Below, piece by piece: positions 9,895 through 26,011 of a stretch of DNA of 30,972 nucleotides. The notes beneath the pieces are model-generated. The model did no database searches. It worked only from the letters and a program-made list of their open reading frames with translations, and was not told where the DNA came from. The stretch is from a virus. The stretch is from positions 1 to 30,972 of the IMG/VR virus record IMGVR_UViG_3300042465_005689. One strand, written 5' to 3'. The position numbers were made by a program, and so were the translations under genes. Position 1 is the first letter of the stretch. Every line of letters begins with the position of its first letter.

Positions 9895-10347
9895 ATGCCT
9901 TCACAACTTACAAACCCTAGAGGCAGTTTTGACCAGTTGGCTGTCGCAGGCCCTACCGGTCAGACCGTCCAGCAGTATGTTGCCGGTGCGGCAATCCCAG
10001 CGAACACCATTGTCGCTGTTGAGTACAACACGACTACCCAGGCGCTTCAAGTTGTTGCCGCTATTGCAGCCTCCAAAACCATTATCGGAGTTGTCGAGCG
10101 GGCTGTTGCCGCCGACGAGATCGCACTGGTTGTCACTGAAGGCCCTGCGAAGGTTCGTAACAACGCAACGGGAACAGCAATGACTCTTCCTAATCACGTT
10201 GCGGCTGGCGCAGCCGGCGGTGTCGTAGCGTTCGCTGCTACAGCAGGTAACCGTATAGTTGGGTTTGGCCTTGAAGCAATCCTTTCGGGTGACGCAACAG
10301 GCGCTCTGAAGCAGATTTACGTTTCACCGGGTATCGTCCCAACCTGA
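9895..10347 (+). CDS. Head decoration/stabilisation protein (DUF2190-like)
   Basis: Encodes 150 residues with AAAGGA upstream of ATG 9895. The sequence is almost free of charge clusters and is rich in Ala, Val, Gly and Thr. It has a repeated pattern of short beta strands (AGAAIPANTIVAVEYNTTTQ, then IIGVVERAVAADEIALVVTE, then GNRIVGFGLEAILSG). This resembles the small capsid-cement proteins that bind the outside of HK97-type heads and often directly follow the capsid gene. Family assignment is by pattern only. Confidence 0.65.
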   Translation: MPSQLTNPRGSFDQLAVAGPTGQTVQQYVAGAAIPANTIVAVEYNTTTQALQVVAAIAASKTIIGVVERAVAADEIALVVTEGPAKVRNNATGTAMTLPNHVAAGAAGGVVAFAATAGNRIVGFGLEAILSGDATGALKQIYVSPGIVPT

Positions 10348-17677: not shown

Positions 17678-20600
17678 ATGTCTACCGACTATCTGGATCG
17701 GATGGCCGCAACAGCCGAGGCGACCCAACAGTTCGGTGCGACCCAACAGGTTGAAGATCCGACAGGTGGCGCAGGGTACGGGAACAACACCCCCGTGTTG
17801 CAACAGTTACCGGGCGCTCTTAAAGCGATTGATAACAAGTATTCGAACCCGGAGTTCCTTCGAAGTTTCCAGCAGTTACCACCCGCGATTCAACAGTTAA
17901 CCCAACAGTTAGATATGGCACGCGCCCGCAAAGGGCAGATGCCTGTGTCGGCTTTGTCGTCAATGAAAGCGGGGCAAGCCGCGATGACACACGAGGCTGT
18001 CACCCCGGAGAAACCGATATCTGCTTCGCCGACGGCGATCCCAAACAACGCCGTATCGGACCTCAAGATCCTTGCGAAAGCTTTGCCGCACATCCCGAAA
18101 GGGTTGTTCAACGAAGTAATCGACACGTTCGACGGGTTAGAAGACGATCTTCAGCAGGCGCGCGACGAAGGCAAAAATAGTGTCCAACAGTTTTTGAATC
18201 TGCCGGTCATCAGGATGATCCCAGGTGCGTTCACCGCGTCGAACCTTGCAGGCGGTGACATCGATGAGATAGTCCGCCACCCCCTGTTCACAGCGTTAGA
18301 TGTTCTGCCCTATGCGAACAAGGTGGCTAGAACGTCGCCGGTGTTCAAAGCCGCGCAAGAAGAAGTCGCAGCGTTGAACAAGGCAGGGTTGGCGGTTAAC
18401 AAACCGCGGCCGATAACGACCGCACTGTTACGCAAAATTGATGACTCGCCCGAAGCGCAACTGTTGGCTGAACCCCGTGTGATACCGAACCGTGCCGGCG
18501 AGTTCGTCGACGACAACATCAAAACTTTGGCACCTGTTGCGAAACTGTCGGATCTGATGGGCGGGCAAGCACGGCAAGTATCACGGATTATTGAGGGTGG
18601 GAACCAGCAGCTAAAAGACTGGACATCAGGCACGGTTCGGGTGAACGCACCAACCCAGGCGCTCGAGGATGTCGCGACACTCACCCGGTATCAGGCGAAA
18701 CTTGGTGCGGACGACACACTCCTGATGGACGATTTTGGGTTGACTCGTGCGCGTGAAGCGGAACTGAAACTTATCGGCACGCAAGGCGCTGTCGCTGATC
18801 GTGCTTCGTTCCTACCGAACGAGCAAGCGTACGTCGCACAATGGGAAGCTGCGAACAACACGATGCGAACCCACTTGGTGAAAGAGGGATTGTTGGGCGA
18901 ATGGAAAGGCGAGGTTTTCACAACCGATCAGACCAAAAACTTTGTGTCGAAACAGACCGGAATCAACGACGCGAAGGCTGCGATCCTTGGTGGTGTCACC
19001 TCGAAAGGTGCAGACAAGATCGGGATGATGCACAAGTTTGATCTGCTCCGCCAGGATGTACGATTCGAAGCCGCGTATCAGGATGTTATCGCCGGGGATT
19101 TCCGTTCCGCAGCGGGCCGGTTGAACCGCAAGCAGAACTATCCGATGCCAAAAATTGCTGGTGTTACTGACCGTCAGATCGGAAAGATTATTGACGGTGT
19201 TGAGAAGGTAGCGGCCCGCGAGAAACGGCTGTTCACGATTGAACGCAAAACACCCCCAGCACGGTTCGCTGACATGATTAACGATAAGGCCGCAGCGAAC
19301 TATGTGAACCAGTTGGAAACGCGTGGTGTTCTCGGTGATCGTGGGCAGGCCGAAGTGTGGTTGCGTGAAGGCCAGGTGGATCGCATCCCCGGTTGGGACG
19401 GCAAAGAGTTCCGGGTGCATCAGGATGGGATTAGGAAAACGTGGCAGCAGCTAGCAGCAGCGGGTGAAGACCCGATTTACCTGCCGCGTGTGACGATCTC
19501 TCAGGCGAAACAAGTTGGTCATGGTGGGATCTCTGATCGGATCCCAACGGTTCGTGCAACAAAGGAACGGATGGGTGACATCTCGCCGTCTGTTGATTCC
19601 CCGTCGATCGCACTGTCGCACGAGGGTTTCAACATTATGGCCCGCCATATTTCAACGGAGATCACAACTGAGATCGGGTTGAAGTTTGGTATCCCCGAGG
19701 AGCAGTTGCGGGCGATGTTCGCCGAGCATGCTGTTGTGAAGTCTGCTGGGGTGGATTCGATTCGCGCTCTCGCGAAACAAGAGCAGTTGATGAAGCAGTG
19801 GGGTATGCCGTACAACCCGGAGACGATGGGTGTGTTCGGTGGTGGGGTGATGGGTTCGTCCGCATCAAAAGAAGCAGTCTGGTTACCGAGGTCTATTGGT
19901 AAAACTCTGGAAGCGTTCAACAAAGAATCGTCAACATCAATCAAACGTCTTGTTGATCCGATCACCGGTCTGATGCGCGTGTCGCTGCTACCCCTGTCTC
20001 CACGCTGGCATCTGTACAACATTATTGGTGGGGCGATGATGCTGATGTCGGAGGCGGGGCCTGGGGCGTTCCGACCGGCGAACATCGCGAAGACCCGGAT
20101 GTTGTTGAACGCAGCGAAAACCGGTAAACAAATATCACCTGATGTTGCTTCCGAGGTGACCCGACTGCTCGGGTATACGTCGCGTGATGAGATGCGGTTG
20201 GCGTTCGAGATGGGCGGTGTGAAGCAGCGTCTGTTTACCGAGTCTTGGGTCGGCCGGCACGCGAAGATGGGGATCAAAAAGAGTTTTGATTTCAACCAGC
20301 ATTTCGATGACATGTACAGGGTGATGGGTTACCTGTACGGGCAAGACAAAGCTTTGGCGAAGGGGTTGTCTCGGGGTGAAGCCCAGGCTGAGGGTGTTGC
20401 TATCGCCCGTAAAGTGTTGCAGGACTCGGCGGCTATGACCCCGTTCGAACGTAACGTCCTGCGGTCGGTGTTCCCGTTCTACAGTTGGCTGTCGCATGTG
20501 ATGCGGTTCACGATGGCGTACCCGTTGGATCACCCGTGGCGTGCCGCACTCGTAGCGGGTTTCGGCCGGCAAGTGTTCGAGGATCTGGGCGAGGGTGGCA

Positions 20601-21235
20601 CCATCGACATGTTGAACAACATTGAATACGGTGGCGTTGACGAGGACGGGAACCGTAAGAGTTTGCGGATCGGGCCGATGAACCCGTTTAACGACGTAGG
20701 TAACTTGTTCACTCTGGCCGGTTGGGCCGGTGCGTTAAACCCGTTGGGGTCGACAGTGTTGCAACAGTTGGGTTACGACTCCCAGCAGGGCGGGCCGGAA
20801 CTATTCCCGCAGATGTCGTATGACCCTTCGACGGGGCGGTTGAAGTCAACGGCGGGGAACCCGTTGCAGAACTTGTTGTTCAACACGATCCCCCAGGCGC
20901 AGGTCGCGTTTCGAGCGTCCGGGTTGGACAAAGATTTTAACAAGATGCGTGCCGACCCAGAATCGCAAGGTGCTGCGCGGGCGATGCTGTTATCGGGGAT
21001 GGGTTTGCCATCCCTCAACAAGGCATCGAATACCGGCAAAAAGTATTATCAGGCTGAAACGCAACGTCAGAAAGCTAGGACGATGCGGATAGCGGAGCTG
21101 ATCAAACGGGGTGACATCGAGGGTCTTGTCGGTGAGGGTGTCTCACCGGAGAATATTCGTGCGATCGTTCAGCAGCAGGAGTCCGGTGAGTACAACCCGG
21201 CGATGTTGGATGTTCCTGAGGAGGCTGCGGGATGA
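17678..21235 (+). CDS. Large internal virion-like protein (1185 aa)
   Basis: The largest gene of the window, starting 5 bases after the preceding stop. It is mostly alpha-helical. The C-terminal half includes MRVSLLPLSPRWHLYNIIGG (about residue 765) and a hydrophobic NVLRSVFPFYSWLSHVMRF (about residue 925). Similar aromatic YSW segments occur in large phage internal or injected proteins. No clear lysozyme, transglycosylase or polymerase motif is visible. With the two preceding genes it forms a three-gene set like the T7-type internal core. It is coupled to the HTH gene by an ATGA overlap. Confidence 0.55.
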   Translation: MSTDYLDRMAATAEATQQFGATQQVEDPTGGAGYGNNTPVLQQLPGALKAIDNKYSNPEFLRSFQQLPPAIQQLTQQLDMARARKGQMPVSALSSMKAGQAAMTHEAVTPEKPISASPTAIPNNAVSDLKILAKALPHIPKGLFNEVIDTFDGLEDDLQQARDEGKNSVQQFLNLPVIRMIPGAFTASNLAGGDIDEIVRHPLFTALDVLPYANKVARTSPVFKAAQEEVAALNKAGLAVNKPRPITTALLRKIDDSPEAQLLAEPRVIPNRAGEFVDDNIKTLAPVAKLSDLMGGQARQVSRIIEGGNQQLKDWTSGTVRVNAPTQALEDVATLTRYQAKLGADDTLLMDDFGLTRAREAELKLIGTQGAVADRASFLPNEQAYVAQWEAANNTMRTHLVKEGLLGEWKGEVFTTDQTKNFVSKQTGINDAKAAILGGVTSKGADKIGMMHKFDLLRQDVRFEAAYQDVIAGDFRSAAGRLNRKQNYPMPKIAGVTDRQIGKIIDGVEKVAAREKRLFTIERKTPPARFADMINDKAAANYVNQLETRGVLGDRGQAEVWLREGQVDRIPGWDGKEFRVHQDGIRKTWQQLAAAGEDPIYLPRVTISQAKQVGHGGISDRIPTVRATKERMGDISPSVDSPSIALSHEGFNIMARHISTEITTEIGLKFGIPEEQLRAMFAEHAVVKSAGVDSIRALAKQEQLMKQWGMPYNPETMGVFGGGVMGSSASKEAVWLPRSIGKTLEAFNKESSTSIKRLVDPITGLMRVSLLPLSPRWHLYNIIGGAMMLMSEAGPGAFRPANIAKTRMLLNAAKTGKQISPDVASEVTRLLGYTSRDEMRLAFEMGGVKQRLFTESWVGRHAKMGIKKSFDFNQHFDDMYRVMGYLYGQDKALAKGLSRGEAQAEGVAIARKVLQDSAAMTPFERNVLRSVFPFYSWLSHVMRFTMAYPLDHPWRAALVAGFGRQVFEDLGEGGTIDMLNNIEYGGVDEDGNRKSLRIGPMNPFNDVGNLFTLAGWAGALNPLGSTVLQQLGYDSQQGGPELFPQMSYDPSTGRLKSTAGNPLQNLLFNTIPQAQVAFRASGLDKDFNKMRADPESQGAARAMLLSGMGLPSLNKASNTGKKYYQAETQRQKARTMRIAELIKRGDIEGLVGEGVSPENIRAIVQQQESGEYNPAMLDVPEEAAG

Positions 21236-21570: not shown

Positions 21571-21653
21571 TCAAACAAGCCTTGTCATTATACGCACATG
21601 TCTTCGCTTGGTGCAAACCAATGTGTCTACGGGTTGTTTGAAAGGGTTTGTTT

Positions 21654-22196
21654 ATGACTGTAACGATGCTCGAAAATGGTTACGTTCTGGTGCCTCGCGC
21701 TGACTGGGGTGCGAAGTATCGTGCTGGGAACATCGCTATGCGACCGCTGCGGTCCAAGGTGTTTATCCATCACACTGTGACCCCCGCTACCGACGACCCG
21801 TGCGGCGATATGCGGCTCGTTGAGAAGGTGTTGCACAGCCGGAAACTTGCACCCGGATACAGCTTTACGGTTCACCCGACGGGGGCGATCCTCGAGGGCG
21901 CGGGGAAGATGGTTGGGGCGCACACCGCCGGCCATAACTCTGAGGGGTACGCGTTTAGTTTCATAGGCAACATGGACCAGGAGCATCCGACGATGCCCGC
22001 TTTGGTGAATGTTGCTAGGACGATCAACATTATGCGGATGACCGGGCAGCTTGTCCCGGATCTTGCGCAGATTCAGATTCTGCCGCATCGGGCTGTGAAG
22101 CCGACTGCTTGCCCAGGGTCAAACATGCTCACCCAAAATATTAATGGGAAGTCGGCGTTGGATTGGATCCGCTGGTTTGCCGAGCAGGGTGCCTGA
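21654..22196 (+). CDS. Endolysin, N-acetylmuramoyl-L-alanine amidase
   Basis: Encodes 180 residues from ATG 21654, with AAAGGG 7 bases upstream; the in-frame TTG at 21648 is less likely. It is an Amidase_2/PGRP-type zinc amidase that cuts the bond between muramic acid and the stem peptide. VFIHHTVTP supplies the first zinc His (His39). GAHTAGHN (about 88-95) is the family's central motif. LPHRAVKPTACPG supplies His145 and Cys153. An N-terminal PRADWGAKY motif is typical. The protein ends right after the catalytic domain, so no separate wall-binding domain is visible. It opens the lysis cassette. Confidence 0.92.
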   Translation: MTVTMLENGYVLVPRADWGAKYRAGNIAMRPLRSKVFIHHTVTPATDDPCGDMRLVEKVLHSRKLAPGYSFTVHPTGAILEGAGKMVGAHTAGHNSEGYAFSFIGNMDQEHPTMPALVNVARTINIMRMTGQLVPDLAQIQILPHRAVKPTACPGSNMLTQNINGKSALDWIRWFAEQGA

Positions 22197-22549
22197 TGTC
22201 CGCTGCTGTAACCCTGTTTACCGAGGCCCGAGATTTTCTGTTGGCGGCCGCAGGTCTGGTCGCTTCGGTGACTGTTGTTGTTGCTGGTTCGCGTGCGTGG
22301 TTTGTGAACCCGTTGTTGAAAGGTATTGATCTGCGGGCTGAGAAGCGGATCAATCTTGCGTTGGCCCCGTTGGAAGCAAAGCTTGATGATCTGAGTGTGG
22401 ACATTTTGGATATCCGCCATGAGGTCAACACGAACCGGGGCAAAAGTTTGAAAGACACTGTGATGTCGACAAGGGAAGAGGTGCGGGTTTTGTCCGCACA
22501 GTTCCACGAGTATAAGGATGGTAGAGATGTCCGAGATGGGCGAGTTTGA
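22196..22549 (+). CDS. Membrane protein with coiled coil, lysis cassette
   Basis: Encodes 117 residues; ATG 22196 overlaps the endolysin stop (TGATG). Residues about 14-38 are one hydrophobic segment (FLLAAAGLVASVTVVVAGSR). A charged helical, coiled-coil-like region follows (RAEKRINLALAPLEAKLDDL onward), with a hydrophilic C terminus. The layout of one TM plus a long coil resembles accessory holins or spanin-like proteins of phage lysis cassettes. Its 3' end overlaps the holin gene. It could be a holin itself or a regulator of the one downstream. Confidence 0.65.
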   Translation: MSAAVTLFTEARDFLLAAAGLVASVTVVVAGSRAWFVNPLLKGIDLRAEKRINLALAPLEAKLDDLSVDILDIRHEVNTNRGKSLKDTVMSTREEVRVLSAQFHEYKDGRDVRDGRV

Positions 22550-22796
22550 TGATGTTGGCGCGGTCGGTGACGATCACGCTGATTGTTGTGTGGGTGGTGC
22601 TGGTAGTGGCCGTGTTGTGCCGTGGTTGACTGAGCAGCGGCGTGCGTGGTTGTACCGGCTGGTTACTCCGGTTACGGTGCTGTTGGTTGCGTATGGTGCT
22701 GTGGATGAGGCGACTGCGGCTTTGTGGGTTGGGGTTGTGACGGCTGCTTTGACGGGTGGTTTGGCTATCAGGAATACGTCGACGAAACCCGCCTAA
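22527..22796 (+). CDS. Holin, two-TM
   Basis: Encodes 89 residues from ATG 22527, with AAGG 9 bases upstream; ATG 22518 is also possible. An acidic N terminus with paired Cys (DDHADCCVGG) precedes the basic EQRRAWLYR. Two hydrophobic segments follow (LVTPVTVLLVAYGAVDEATA, then WVGVVTAALTGGLAI), and a short polar tail ends in STKPA. Small two-TM proteins of this size downstream of an endolysin are typically holins, which open the cytoplasmic membrane at lysis time. The stop is followed by the attP-like palindrome. Confidence 0.75.
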   Translation: MSEMGEFDDVGAVGDDHADCCVGGAGSGRVVPWLTEQRRAWLYRLVTPVTVLLVAYGAVDEATAALWVGVVTAALTGGLAIRNTSTKPA

Positions 22797-22800
22797 CAAA

Positions 22801-22856
22801 CATGGTTGCGAAACCTAGACTTACACCCCCGTGTAGGTGTAGTTTTCGCAACCATG
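22801..22856 (+). other. attP: Candidate attP: 56-bp near-perfect palindrome at integrase start
   Basis: Arms of 26 bp (22801-22826 and 22831-22856) match at 23 of 26 positions around a central CCCC. The outer 13 bases, CATGGTTGCGAAA, are perfect. The right arm ends in the integrase ATG (22854-22856). Large serine integrases use attP sites of about 40-56 bp made of two imperfect inverted half-sites, often beside int. Alternatives are an autoregulatory operator or a terminator after holin. Confidence 0.6.
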
Positions 22857-24230
22857 AAAGTTGTTTACGCGAGAGTCTCATCCGACCCCGACGGCACATC
22901 GCTATCCCCCGAAGCCCAGATAGCCGAATGCGTTGAGTTCGCAAAGAAACACGGGTGGGACCACATCCAAGAACATGTCGACCGGGACATCAGCGCGTGG
23001 TCCCGCAAAGTCGCACGCCCCGCATGGAACCACATCCTCGACGGGATACGCAACGGGACAATAACCGGAGTCATCGTCCACCATCTCGACCGGCTCATCC
23101 GGCAGGTACGCGACCTCGAAACCCTCATCGACGCGTTAGAAGACCGACCAGGGACCACCCGCGCGTTTCCCATCTACTCAGTCCACGGCGACATCGACCT
23201 ATCCCGCCCCGACGGCCGGGCCATGGCACGCATCCTTGTCACGATCGCCCAGAAAGAATCCGACGACAAATCCCGGCGACTCAAACTTGTTCTCGGCGCA
23301 CAGGCAGCACAGGGTTTATCGCACGGCGGCCGCCAACCATACGGGTGGAACCCCGACAGGGTCACACTTCACCCCGTTCACTCGCAGAATGTTCGGCAGC
23401 TTGTCGACTGGGCGTTCCAAGGGGTCAGCCTGTCGGAGATGGCACGCAGGTTTAACACCGAGAAGATCCCCGGCCCGCAGTCCCCAAGGTGGGATGGAAG
23501 CCCTATCGGCCGGATGCTAACCAACCCGAGGCTCGCAGGGTTACGCCGGCATAACGGCAAAATTGTTGCGACCGGCAACTGGGAAACGATTATCACCCTC
23601 GAGGAACACACCAAACTTGTTGGCCTGTTCAACCGACCCCAGAACACCCCGCACGGCAACCAACTCAGATGGTGGGCCACAGGGGTAACTGTCTGCGGGC
23701 GTTGCGGGGGTCGCATGTCATCAATCCCCCACCAGAACGGGCGACGCTACCAGTGCCAGAAACGGTATCAGGGGTGCGGCAACGGGATCCTCGCCGAACC
23801 CGTCGACCAGATCATCGAAACGATCATCACGCACACCCTTCGGGAAGGGTGGGAAACCCCAGCCGCACCCCCTGTCGATGTGACCCTGCTTACTGCCAGC
23901 CTGGAAACTGCACGGGCCAGCATGGACCGCCTCACCACCGACTACTACGTCAACAACCTCATACCCGAACACGCTTTCAAAGCGGCGTTCGAACCGTTAC
24001 AAACGCGTGTTGAGCAACTCGAGGCGGAACTCGCCGACACCCAAACCCAAACACCCGTCCTTGATTTTGATATTCCCGGCACGTTCGCGTCTTGCACACC
24101 CGAACAAAAACGGGGTATCTGCCGGACCCTGATCCCCTGTGTGAAGATCGGGCCGGCAGGACCGGGGTTCAGGGGGTTCGATTCGACGCGAATCGAAGTT
24201 TGGTTAACCGACCCTCCACCACCGCTTTAA
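22854..24230 (+). CDS. int: Large serine recombinase (phage integrase)
   Basis: Encodes 458 residues from ATG 22854. The N-terminal resolvase domain begins MKVVYARVSS with Tyr5, Arg7 and catalytic Ser9. It continues through HHLDRLIRQVRDLETLID and ESDDKSRRLKLV. A recombinase domain follows (GWNPDRV onward). Then comes a zinc ribbon with Cys281/Cys284 (CGRCGG) and a later QKRYQGCGNG, and a C-terminal coiled-coil part (ETARASMDRLTTDYYVNNLI). This is the normal large-serine-integrase layout and length; the enzyme inserts phage DNA between attP and attB. No Shine-Dalgarno precedes the ATG. The coding strand switches to C/A-rich codons compared with the G/T-rich holin upstream. Confidence 0.93.
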   Translation: MKVVYARVSSDPDGTSLSPEAQIAECVEFAKKHGWDHIQEHVDRDISAWSRKVARPAWNHILDGIRNGTITGVIVHHLDRLIRQVRDLETLIDALEDRPGTTRAFPIYSVHGDIDLSRPDGRAMARILVTIAQKESDDKSRRLKLVLGAQAAQGLSHGGRQPYGWNPDRVTLHPVHSQNVRQLVDWAFQGVSLSEMARRFNTEKIPGPQSPRWDGSPIGRMLTNPRLAGLRRHNGKIVATGNWETIITLEEHTKLVGLFNRPQNTPHGNQLRWWATGVTVCGRCGGRMSSIPHQNGRRYQCQKRYQGCGNGILAEPVDQIIETIITHTLREGWETPAAPPVDVTLLTASLETARASMDRLTTDYYVNNLIPEHAFKAAFEPLQTRVEQLEAELADTQTQTPVLDFDIPGTFASCTPEQKRGICRTLIPCVKIGPAGPGFRGFDSTRIEVWLTDPPPPL

Positions 24231-24273: not shown

Positions 24274-24300
24274 ACCGATGACACGAAACCCTGTGTCGGT
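24274..24300. terminator. Possible bidirectional hairpin between convergent genes
   Basis: The 69-base gap between int (stop at 24230) and the convergent minus-strand operon contains ACCGATGACAC (24274-24284) and GTGTCGGT (24293-24300). They can pair with a two-base bulge around an 8-nt loop. There is no strong U-tract on either side. Its place at a convergent junction makes a terminator plausible. Confidence 0.35.
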
Positions 24301-25136
24301 CATACCCCGCACACCCCTGCGCACTCGTCACCCCAGAGTGTCCCTTGGCCTGCGTCCTCGGCGTTATCAAAGTTGATTTCGCCGAGAGGTTTCCCTGAAC
24401 TATGAAGGTAAACGGGTTTGGTGATTCTTCCGAATTGGCCGTTGGATCTCAGATCGAGGTCAAGGTCGATCGCTTTCTGAAACGCTTCCGGTTCCTCGTT
24501 ACGCAAGTAACGCCATTCTTCGTTCGAGTGGAACGGGCAATGCCAGCACGCCGATCGCACAGGATCCGGGAAACGGTCATCGGCTTTCATCGCTGCGATG
24601 CAGTCGTAGCGGGTGAGCCGCAGATCAACCAGGGGGTACACGTTTTTGACCCACGGGTACGGGTGGTCTTTCATCCGTTGAACCTCATCCCATGAGATAC
24701 CCATTGTCTGCTCAACAAGGGTGTCCGTGATGTGCATGTGCCGCTTCTTGTGCAGCCCGGTGAGATCCCGTAGGGAACGCAATATCGGTTCAATCTTGTA
24801 ATCAGCGGTGCATGTCCTGCGGATAATCCCAGTTGAGCCATCCTCGTTCAGTGTGAACAAAGGCGGATTCGAGGATCGGGTTTTCTCACCCGATACCACC
24901 GCCCGGAGATCATCAGAGATTGATGTTCCCCGGCCAACCTGATGAAACGCCACGCCTTCATCAGTGAACCGTTTCTCCCACCATCGCATGTTCTCGTAAA
25001 CCGATTCGGGTTCGTCCCCGGTATCAGCAAAGATCACATGATGAAACGGTGGAAGCTCCCCGATGATTGACATTCTGGCAACAGCCGACGATTGAACGCC
25101 GGCCCCGAAACTTAGAACTCTCATCGGTTCGGTCAT
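24300..25136 (-). CDS. PAPS-reductase-like PP-loop ATPase
   Basis: Encodes 278 residues from ATG 25136. It overlaps the upstream reading frame as ATGA and has GGAAGAAGAGA before the start. The N-terminal LSFGAGVQSSAVARMS is the PP-loop that adenylates a substrate. RRTCTADYKIEPI and ACWHCPFHSNEEW supply a Cys and a CxxC that could bind a metal, Fe-S cluster or sulfur. These features fit the phage PAPS-reductase-like family, relatives of the DndC and sulfur-transfer enzymes. True sulfate reduction is unlikely in isolation. Placement right after a cytosine methyltransferase suggests a base or backbone DNA modification. It is the last gene of the early operon. Confidence 0.8.
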   Translation of the reverse strand: MTEPMRVLSFGAGVQSSAVARMSIIGELPPFHHVIFADTGDEPESVYENMRWWEKRFTDEGVAFHQVGRGTSISDDLRAVVSGEKTRSSNPPLFTLNEDGSTGIIRRTCTADYKIEPILRSLRDLTGLHKKRHMHITDTLVEQTMGISWDEVQRMKDHPYPWVKNVYPLVDLRLTRYDCIAAMKADDRFPDPVRSACWHCPFHSNEEWRYLRNEEPEAFQKAIDLDLDLRSNGQFGRITKPVYLHSSGKPLGEINFDNAEDAGQGTLWGDECAGVCGV

Positions 25137-26011
25137 CGGATCTCTTCTTCCGCTATCGCGGACATGATGCAGCATTCGGGGGGTCGATTCTTTTGGGTAG
25201 TCACTGCGCCCTCATTCACTGAGCCTGTCGAGTAGTTCAACGAATGCTGCTGCTGCCACTGCTGGTACGAGTCCGTTCCCACCGAGGTGCAAGGATTCAA
25301 CCAATTCCGGGGGAGTCCCATTAGTTGTTCTACGAATCGCGGGTTTAGGTCCACCTTGGGCGATGTACTCGGGCCAGTCCCCTTCTCTATTTGGCGGCCA
25401 CTGGCCGTATGTATCGCCGCAGCTACCGGTAGCATTTGCGAGTTTCGGTGTAGTTGTGACGGCGAGGCCGCTAGGTCTTTCGGGTCGTGGGCGGTCGGTG
25501 TCGGCCAATAGCCAGAACCGTTCCCGTTTGTGCGGCGCGCCAACCTCGGCCGCTGAGTGCAAACCCCATTCCGCATCGAACCCGAGGTCGGCAAGGTCAG
25601 CGAGGACAAAAGGCAAACCTCCCCGAACAAGTTCGGGGACGTTTTCCAAGAACACAAATCTCGGTCCCACTTCACGAACGATTCGTTTGATGGCAGGCCA
25701 GAGCCAGCGTTCGTCGTCAATGCCACGCTGTGATCCTGCGAGACTGAAAGGCTGACAGGGGAAACCGGCAGTGATGCAATCCACTCGGCCGCGCCACGCT
25801 CCGCTATCAAAGGTTGTGAGATCGTCCCAGATAGGAGCCGGATCCAAGTGCGCCTCTTCCATCCTGGCCACAAGAGCGGCCGCCGCGTAGCTGTCCCGCT
25901 CAACGTGAGCCACGGTTCGTGCATCAATTCCGGCGAGTCGGAGTCCGAGTTCGAAGCCCCCGTACCCTGAGCAGAGATGCAAACATCTAAGTTCGGTATG
26001 TGTAGCCACAT
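25133..26011 (-). CDS. Overlapping-frame protein nested with the C5-methyltransferase
   Basis: A 292-residue frame on the same strand as the methyltransferase but in another phase. It starts at ATG 26011, overlapping the lipoprotein stop (TGATG), and ends at TGA 25133, overlapping the next start (ATGA). Both junctions are typical of real genes in this operon. It contains SGSMRNGVCTQRPRLA (about 145-160), GSGYWPTPTAHD (about 165-177), a SPSQLHRN stretch (about 180-190) and LNPRFVEQLMGLPRNW (about 220-236). These resemble, from memory, phage proteins and target-recognition segments associated with Dcm-type enzymes. A conserved phase-shifted shadow of the methyltransferase is the main alternative. 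Function is unknown. Confidence 0.55.
   Translation of the reverse strand: MWLHIPNLDVCISAQGTGASNSDSDSPELMHEPWLTLSGTATRRPLLWPGWKRRTWIRLLSGTISQPLIAERGAAEWIASLPVSPVSLSVSQDHSVALTTNAGSGLPSNESFVKWDRDLCSWKTSPNLFGEVCLLSSLTLPTSGSMRNGVCTQRPRLARRTNGNGSGYWPTPTAHDPKDLAASPSQLHRNSQMLPVAAAIHTASGRQIEKGTGPSTSPKVDLNPRFVEQLMGLPRNWLNPCTSVGTDSYQQWQQQHSLNYSTGSVNEGAVTTQKNRPPECCIMSAIAEEEIR
25212..26009 (-). CDS. DNA cytosine-C5 methyltransferase
   Basis: Encodes 265 residues from GTG 26009, two bases inside the ATG of the overlapping frame, so both would share the GGAAG ribosome site. Motif I is LHLCSGYGGFE (10-20) for SAM. Motif IV is AGFPCQPFS with catalytic Cys85. Motif VI is FLENVP with Glu122. Motif VIII is RERFWLLA (162-169), and motif X is GGNGLVPAV (243-251). 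The region between VIII and X, which chooses the target, is only about 75 residues, so the enzyme is short for a Dcm. It likely protects phage DNA or regulates it by 5-methylcytosine. It ends 76 bases before the next gene start. Confidence 0.9.
   Translation of the reverse strand: MATHTELRCLHLCSGYGGFELGLRLAGIDARTVAHVERDSYAAAALVARMEEAHLDPAPIWDDLTTFDSGAWRGRVDCITAGFPCQPFSLAGSQRGIDDERWLWPAIKRIVREVGPRFVFLENVPELVRGGLPFVLADLADLGFDAEWGLHSAAEVGAPHKRERFWLLADTDRPRPERPSGLAVTTTPKLANATGSCGDTYGQWPPNREGDWPEYIAQGGPKPAIRRTTNGTPPELVESLHLGGNGLVPAVAAAAFVELLDRLSE

Follow-up and report, generated by a model that had tools for sequence, protein, structure and literature searches.

The viral DNA analyzed here, a stretch of 30,972 nucleotides from the IMG/VR record IMGVR_UViG_3300042465_005689 (the window), carries a 56-bp imperfect palindrome that runs into the start codon of an integrase gene, and this arrangement raises the question of whether the palindrome serves integration, as the attachment site (attP) of the phage, or the expression of the flanking genes. 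The attP sites of serine integrases are typically inverted repeats of ~45-50 bp adjacent to the integrase gene, as reported for phiJoe (PMC5311408). An inverted-repeat search recovers the two arms and the spacer given in the preliminary description: 26 nt each (22801-22826 and 22831-22856), 88% complementary (23/26), on either side of the 4-nt spacer CCCC. The spacer lies inside a run of five C (ACACCCCCGTGT), and the centre, between 22828 and 22829, is set by symmetry, not by the C run. Counted over positions 3-28 from the centre, the palindrome matches at 23 of 26 positions, while the best score across 40 Markov-shuffled whole windows is 18/26; over positions 1-26 it reaches 21/26, against 16/26 for the runner-up within the window. 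None of 300 local shuffles equals its score. With a symmetry so far above that of shuffles, the 56-bp palindrome is a real feature. It also sits exactly where it had been placed: the right arm terminates in the integrase ATG (22854-22856), a start backed by alignment to relatives, and no gene separates holin and integrase, the holin-like ORF ending at 22796, 4 nt before the palindrome.

Table 1. Coordinates of the palindrome, its proposed parts and the flanking genes in the window.
Feature	Position	Strand	Remarks
Imperfect palindrome, proposed attP	22801..22856	.	56 bp; inverted repeat 23/26 and shuffle tests
Left half-site positions 16-24, proposed zinc-ribbon motif GTTGCGAAA	22805..22813	.	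9/9 identical to right; register from PMC3783163
Right half-site positions 16-24, proposed zinc-ribbon motif TTTCGCAAC	22844..22852	.	9/9 identical to left; register from PMC3783163; TCGCAACCATG in common with L006
Proposed central (crossover) dinucleotide CC	22828..22829	.	centre of symmetry; same CC central in L006; crossover predicted
Large serine integrase, 458 aa	22854..24230	+	Resolvase, Recombinase and Zn_ribbon_recom Pfam domains; PHROG integrase
Holin-like gene directly upstream of the palindrome	22518..22796	+	Phage_holin_9 (Pfam); PHROG holin
Amidase-type endolysin, lysis block ending at the palindrome	21648..22196	+	Amidase_2; PHROG endolysin

The integrase ORF displays the domain order of the large serine recombinases, a Resolvase domain followed by Recombinase and zinc-ribbon domains, with all three Pfam models over their cut-offs, and it matches the PHROG integrase family with an E value of 1e-84. 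A profile built from four related integrases matches a 500-aa integrase (9iu2), the A118 integrase (4kis) and the phiC31 integrase. On the strength of this domain order and of this kinship to solved serine integrases, the ORF at 22854-24230 is a complete large serine recombinase. Beyond it, a PAPS-reductase-like gene and a C5 cytosine methylase gene (24300-25175 and 25212-26009, both on the minus strand) face the integrase gene from the early region.

The structure of the A118 (LI) integrase indicates that the zinc-ribbon motif occupies positions 16-24 of each 25-bp attP half-site (PMC3783163). In the window, these nine positions are identical in the two half-sites, so that the symmetric motif falls in the same register as in the A118 attP, which likewise has 25-bp half-sites and differs in the letters of the motif and in its Listeria host. 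The palindrome thus combines an imperfect inverted repeat in the range of ~45-56 bp adjoining the integrase gene, a non-palindromic central dinucleotide and a 16-24 motif present in both half-sites.

For comparison with established sites, we located the known attP sequences of Bxb1 and phiC31 in the sequence records of these phages. The Bxb1 attP covers 943-990 of locus L027 and the integrase starts at 992, which puts the centre at -26, as in the window and in a related viral contig, L006. Bxb1 further resembles the window in that its attP immediately precedes a large serine integrase gene and that an inverted outer motif abuts the ATG; it differs in symmetry (15/26 versus 23/26), in its core dinucleotide (GT versus CC) and in belonging to a different phage family. 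The Streptomyces phages phiJoe, phiC31 and phiBT1 also carry an inverted-repeat attP of ~50 bp just upstream of the integrase gene, but in these phages the site does not overlap the start codon. The centre is at -60 in phiC31, and in the phiBT1 record the annotated attP ends 34 nt before the integrase gene, with the best palindrome inside it at -81, versus -26 in the window. In the Streptomyces phage Dexers (L023), a 20/26 palindrome at ~597-653, whose centre precedes a serine integrase by 61 nt, is probably an unannotated attP. The known sites examined match at 15-17 of 26 positions (15/26 in both Bxb1 and phiC31). The layout of integrase and attP in the window is therefore Bxb1-like and ordinary, but unusually symmetric.

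A palindrome overlapping a gene start could also be an operator that a repressor, or the integrase in autoregulation, would recognize, and a protein bound there would also block integrase expression. We consider it very unlikely that the palindrome is such an operator and not a recombination site: its size of ~50 bp, its non-palindromic centre and its zinc-ribbon register fit attP, no repressor gene was recognized adjoining the palindrome, and the position equals that of the proven attP of Bxb1.

Relatives of the phage were identified through a 1185-aa tail-region protein (window 17678-21235), which matches five viral contigs, L003, L004, L006, L009 and L010, and is without a counterpart in Pfam, in PHROGs and among 50,697 phage records. 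The window and these five contigs, all of which encode this protein, look like an undescribed phage lineage. The integrases of three of them are well diverged, with identities to that of the window of 47% (L003), 44% (L006) and 43% (L004); no other integrase found exceeds 47%, and scans in which the L003 or the L006 integrase served as the single query protein revealed no nearer relatives. Both L006 and L003 carry a palindrome that, as in the window, follows directly on the lysis genes and overlaps the integrase start, with 18/26 matches centred at -26 from the ATG and 21/26 centred at -23, respectively; in each case, 0/300 shuffles reach the score. The L006 site has TCGCAACCATG and the CC core in common with the window site, while the L003 arms are unrelated to those of the window in letters. 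Across the three sites, as far as their sequences tell, placement and symmetry are conserved and the letters change.

This change in letters appears to follow the DNA-binding part of the integrase. The zinc-ribbon core is 62% identical between the window and L006 versus 47% between the window and L003, whereas the catalytic domain shows the reverse ranking (54% versus 67%). The outer motifs of the right halves match at 7/9 positions between the window and L006 versus 2/9 between the window and L003, and the pentamer CGCAA, at positions 19-23, is present in all four half-sites of the window and L006. The L003 half-sites are also identical to each other at positions 16-24 (TAGGCACAT). These comparisons, drawn from three phages, suggest that the outer motif co-varies with the zinc-ribbon domain and not with the catalytic domain.

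The other contigs show a less uniform picture. Upstream of the L004 integrase gene, no significant palindrome was detected, and by eye we spotted a weak TGGTAC...GTACCA frame at 9949-9994; the weight of this case is tempered by the fact that known attP sites can be weakly symmetric, as in Bxb1 and phiC31 (15/26). No notable palindrome is found near the more distant integrases (25-36% identity) of L005, L012 and L016, and L013 and L015 contain weak palindromes (17/28 at -56 and 18/28 at -286, respectively). A metallophosphoesterase-like gene with a PHROG match lies after the lysis genes of L004 (9184-9996), directly before the integrase gene; a similar ORF follows the lysis genes of L009 (15227-16024), where no integrase gene was found, and in Kumao a phosphoesterase gene likewise precedes the integrase gene.

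The strong hairpin immediately past the holin stop could alternatively act as an intrinsic transcription terminator, either between the lysis operon and the integrase gene or for leftward early transcription, and one weak terminator-like match is indeed present on the + strand at 22819-22838. Such matches are not above shuffles, however (1 versus a mean of 0.4), the full stem is not followed by a T run, and the right arm extends into the integrase start codon. Furthermore, L009 and L010, related phages whose examined sequence yielded no integrase, have no comparable palindrome after their lysis genes. A terminator is the least probable of the explanations considered here.

Taken together, size, inverted half-sites, the non-palindromic CC and the location immediately ahead of a genuine large serine integrase gene, along with the recurrence of this layout in Bxb1 and two diverged relatives and the co-variation of outer motif and zinc ribbon, uphold the earlier proposal: the palindrome is very probably the attP on which the integrase encoded next to it, on the downstream side, acts.

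A symmetry exceeding that of the known sites examined (23/26 versus 15-17/26) nevertheless leaves room for an added role of this attP. In read-through transcripts of the lysis genes, the palindrome might fold so that the integrase start codon is buried in a hairpin, and integration, by removing the left arm, might free integrase translation. The predicted hairpin is stable in the window (-36.6 kcal/mol, z -7.0) and in L003 (-42.4, z -8.2), with the AUG in the stem, while the right half alone with the integrase start folds no better than shuffles (z -0.6). There is also no promoter-like site upstream, a promoter scan giving nothing above shuffles. However, the start codon of L006 lies outside the main stem, the Bxb1 site folds on par with shuffles (z -0.8), and any DNA palindrome yields an RNA hairpin. 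As L006 and Bxb1 do not share the AUG-covering hairpin, this RNA switch is retained as a side hypothesis only, and an unlikely one. Slightly less likely still is the full form of the idea, an attP doubling as a riboregulator that hides the integrase AUG in the mRNA of the free phage until integration swaps the left arm for host DNA and the integrase is translated.

As an attP, the palindrome would be bound by an integrase dimer, one subunit per half-site; in each subunit, the recombinase domain would contact the inner portion of the half-site and the zinc ribbon the outer motif (GTTGCGAAA/TTTCGCAAC). The bound site would synapse with a host attB and be cut at the central CC, joining the phage to the chromosome. 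By the 5-bp shift rule for the zinc ribbon (PMC3783163), this attB is expected to read approximately GTTGCGAAA-N9-CC-N9-TTTCGCAAC, with only a loose match to the pattern. One terminus of the prophage would then consist of the right half-site and the integrase gene, the opposite one of the lysis genes and the left half-site. The crossover at 22828-22829, which would cut the integrase gene off from all upstream phage DNA but the right half-site, as the preliminary description had proposed, is a prediction, because neither 84,980 species genomes (GTDB) nor viral contigs yielded an integrated copy, an attB or attL/attR. The alignment scans of these genomes, one with the integrase and one with the 1185-aa tail-region protein, each detected no related prophage. 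The exact DNA pattern of the left half-site has no match in viral contigs, and the spaced outer-motif pattern GGTTGCGA-N34-TCGCAACC has one, in L034; this match lies inside a terminase-like gene, has no convincing integrase match and was discarded as due to chance.

The arrangement itself is already known, and the predicted attP of the window leaves the understanding of serine integrases unchanged. The case shows that sequence alone can suffice to predict an attP. The window, L006 and L003 provide three diverged, predicted integrase-attP pairs from a metagenomic phage group that is as yet undescribed, and these pairs may find use as orthogonal recombination tools.
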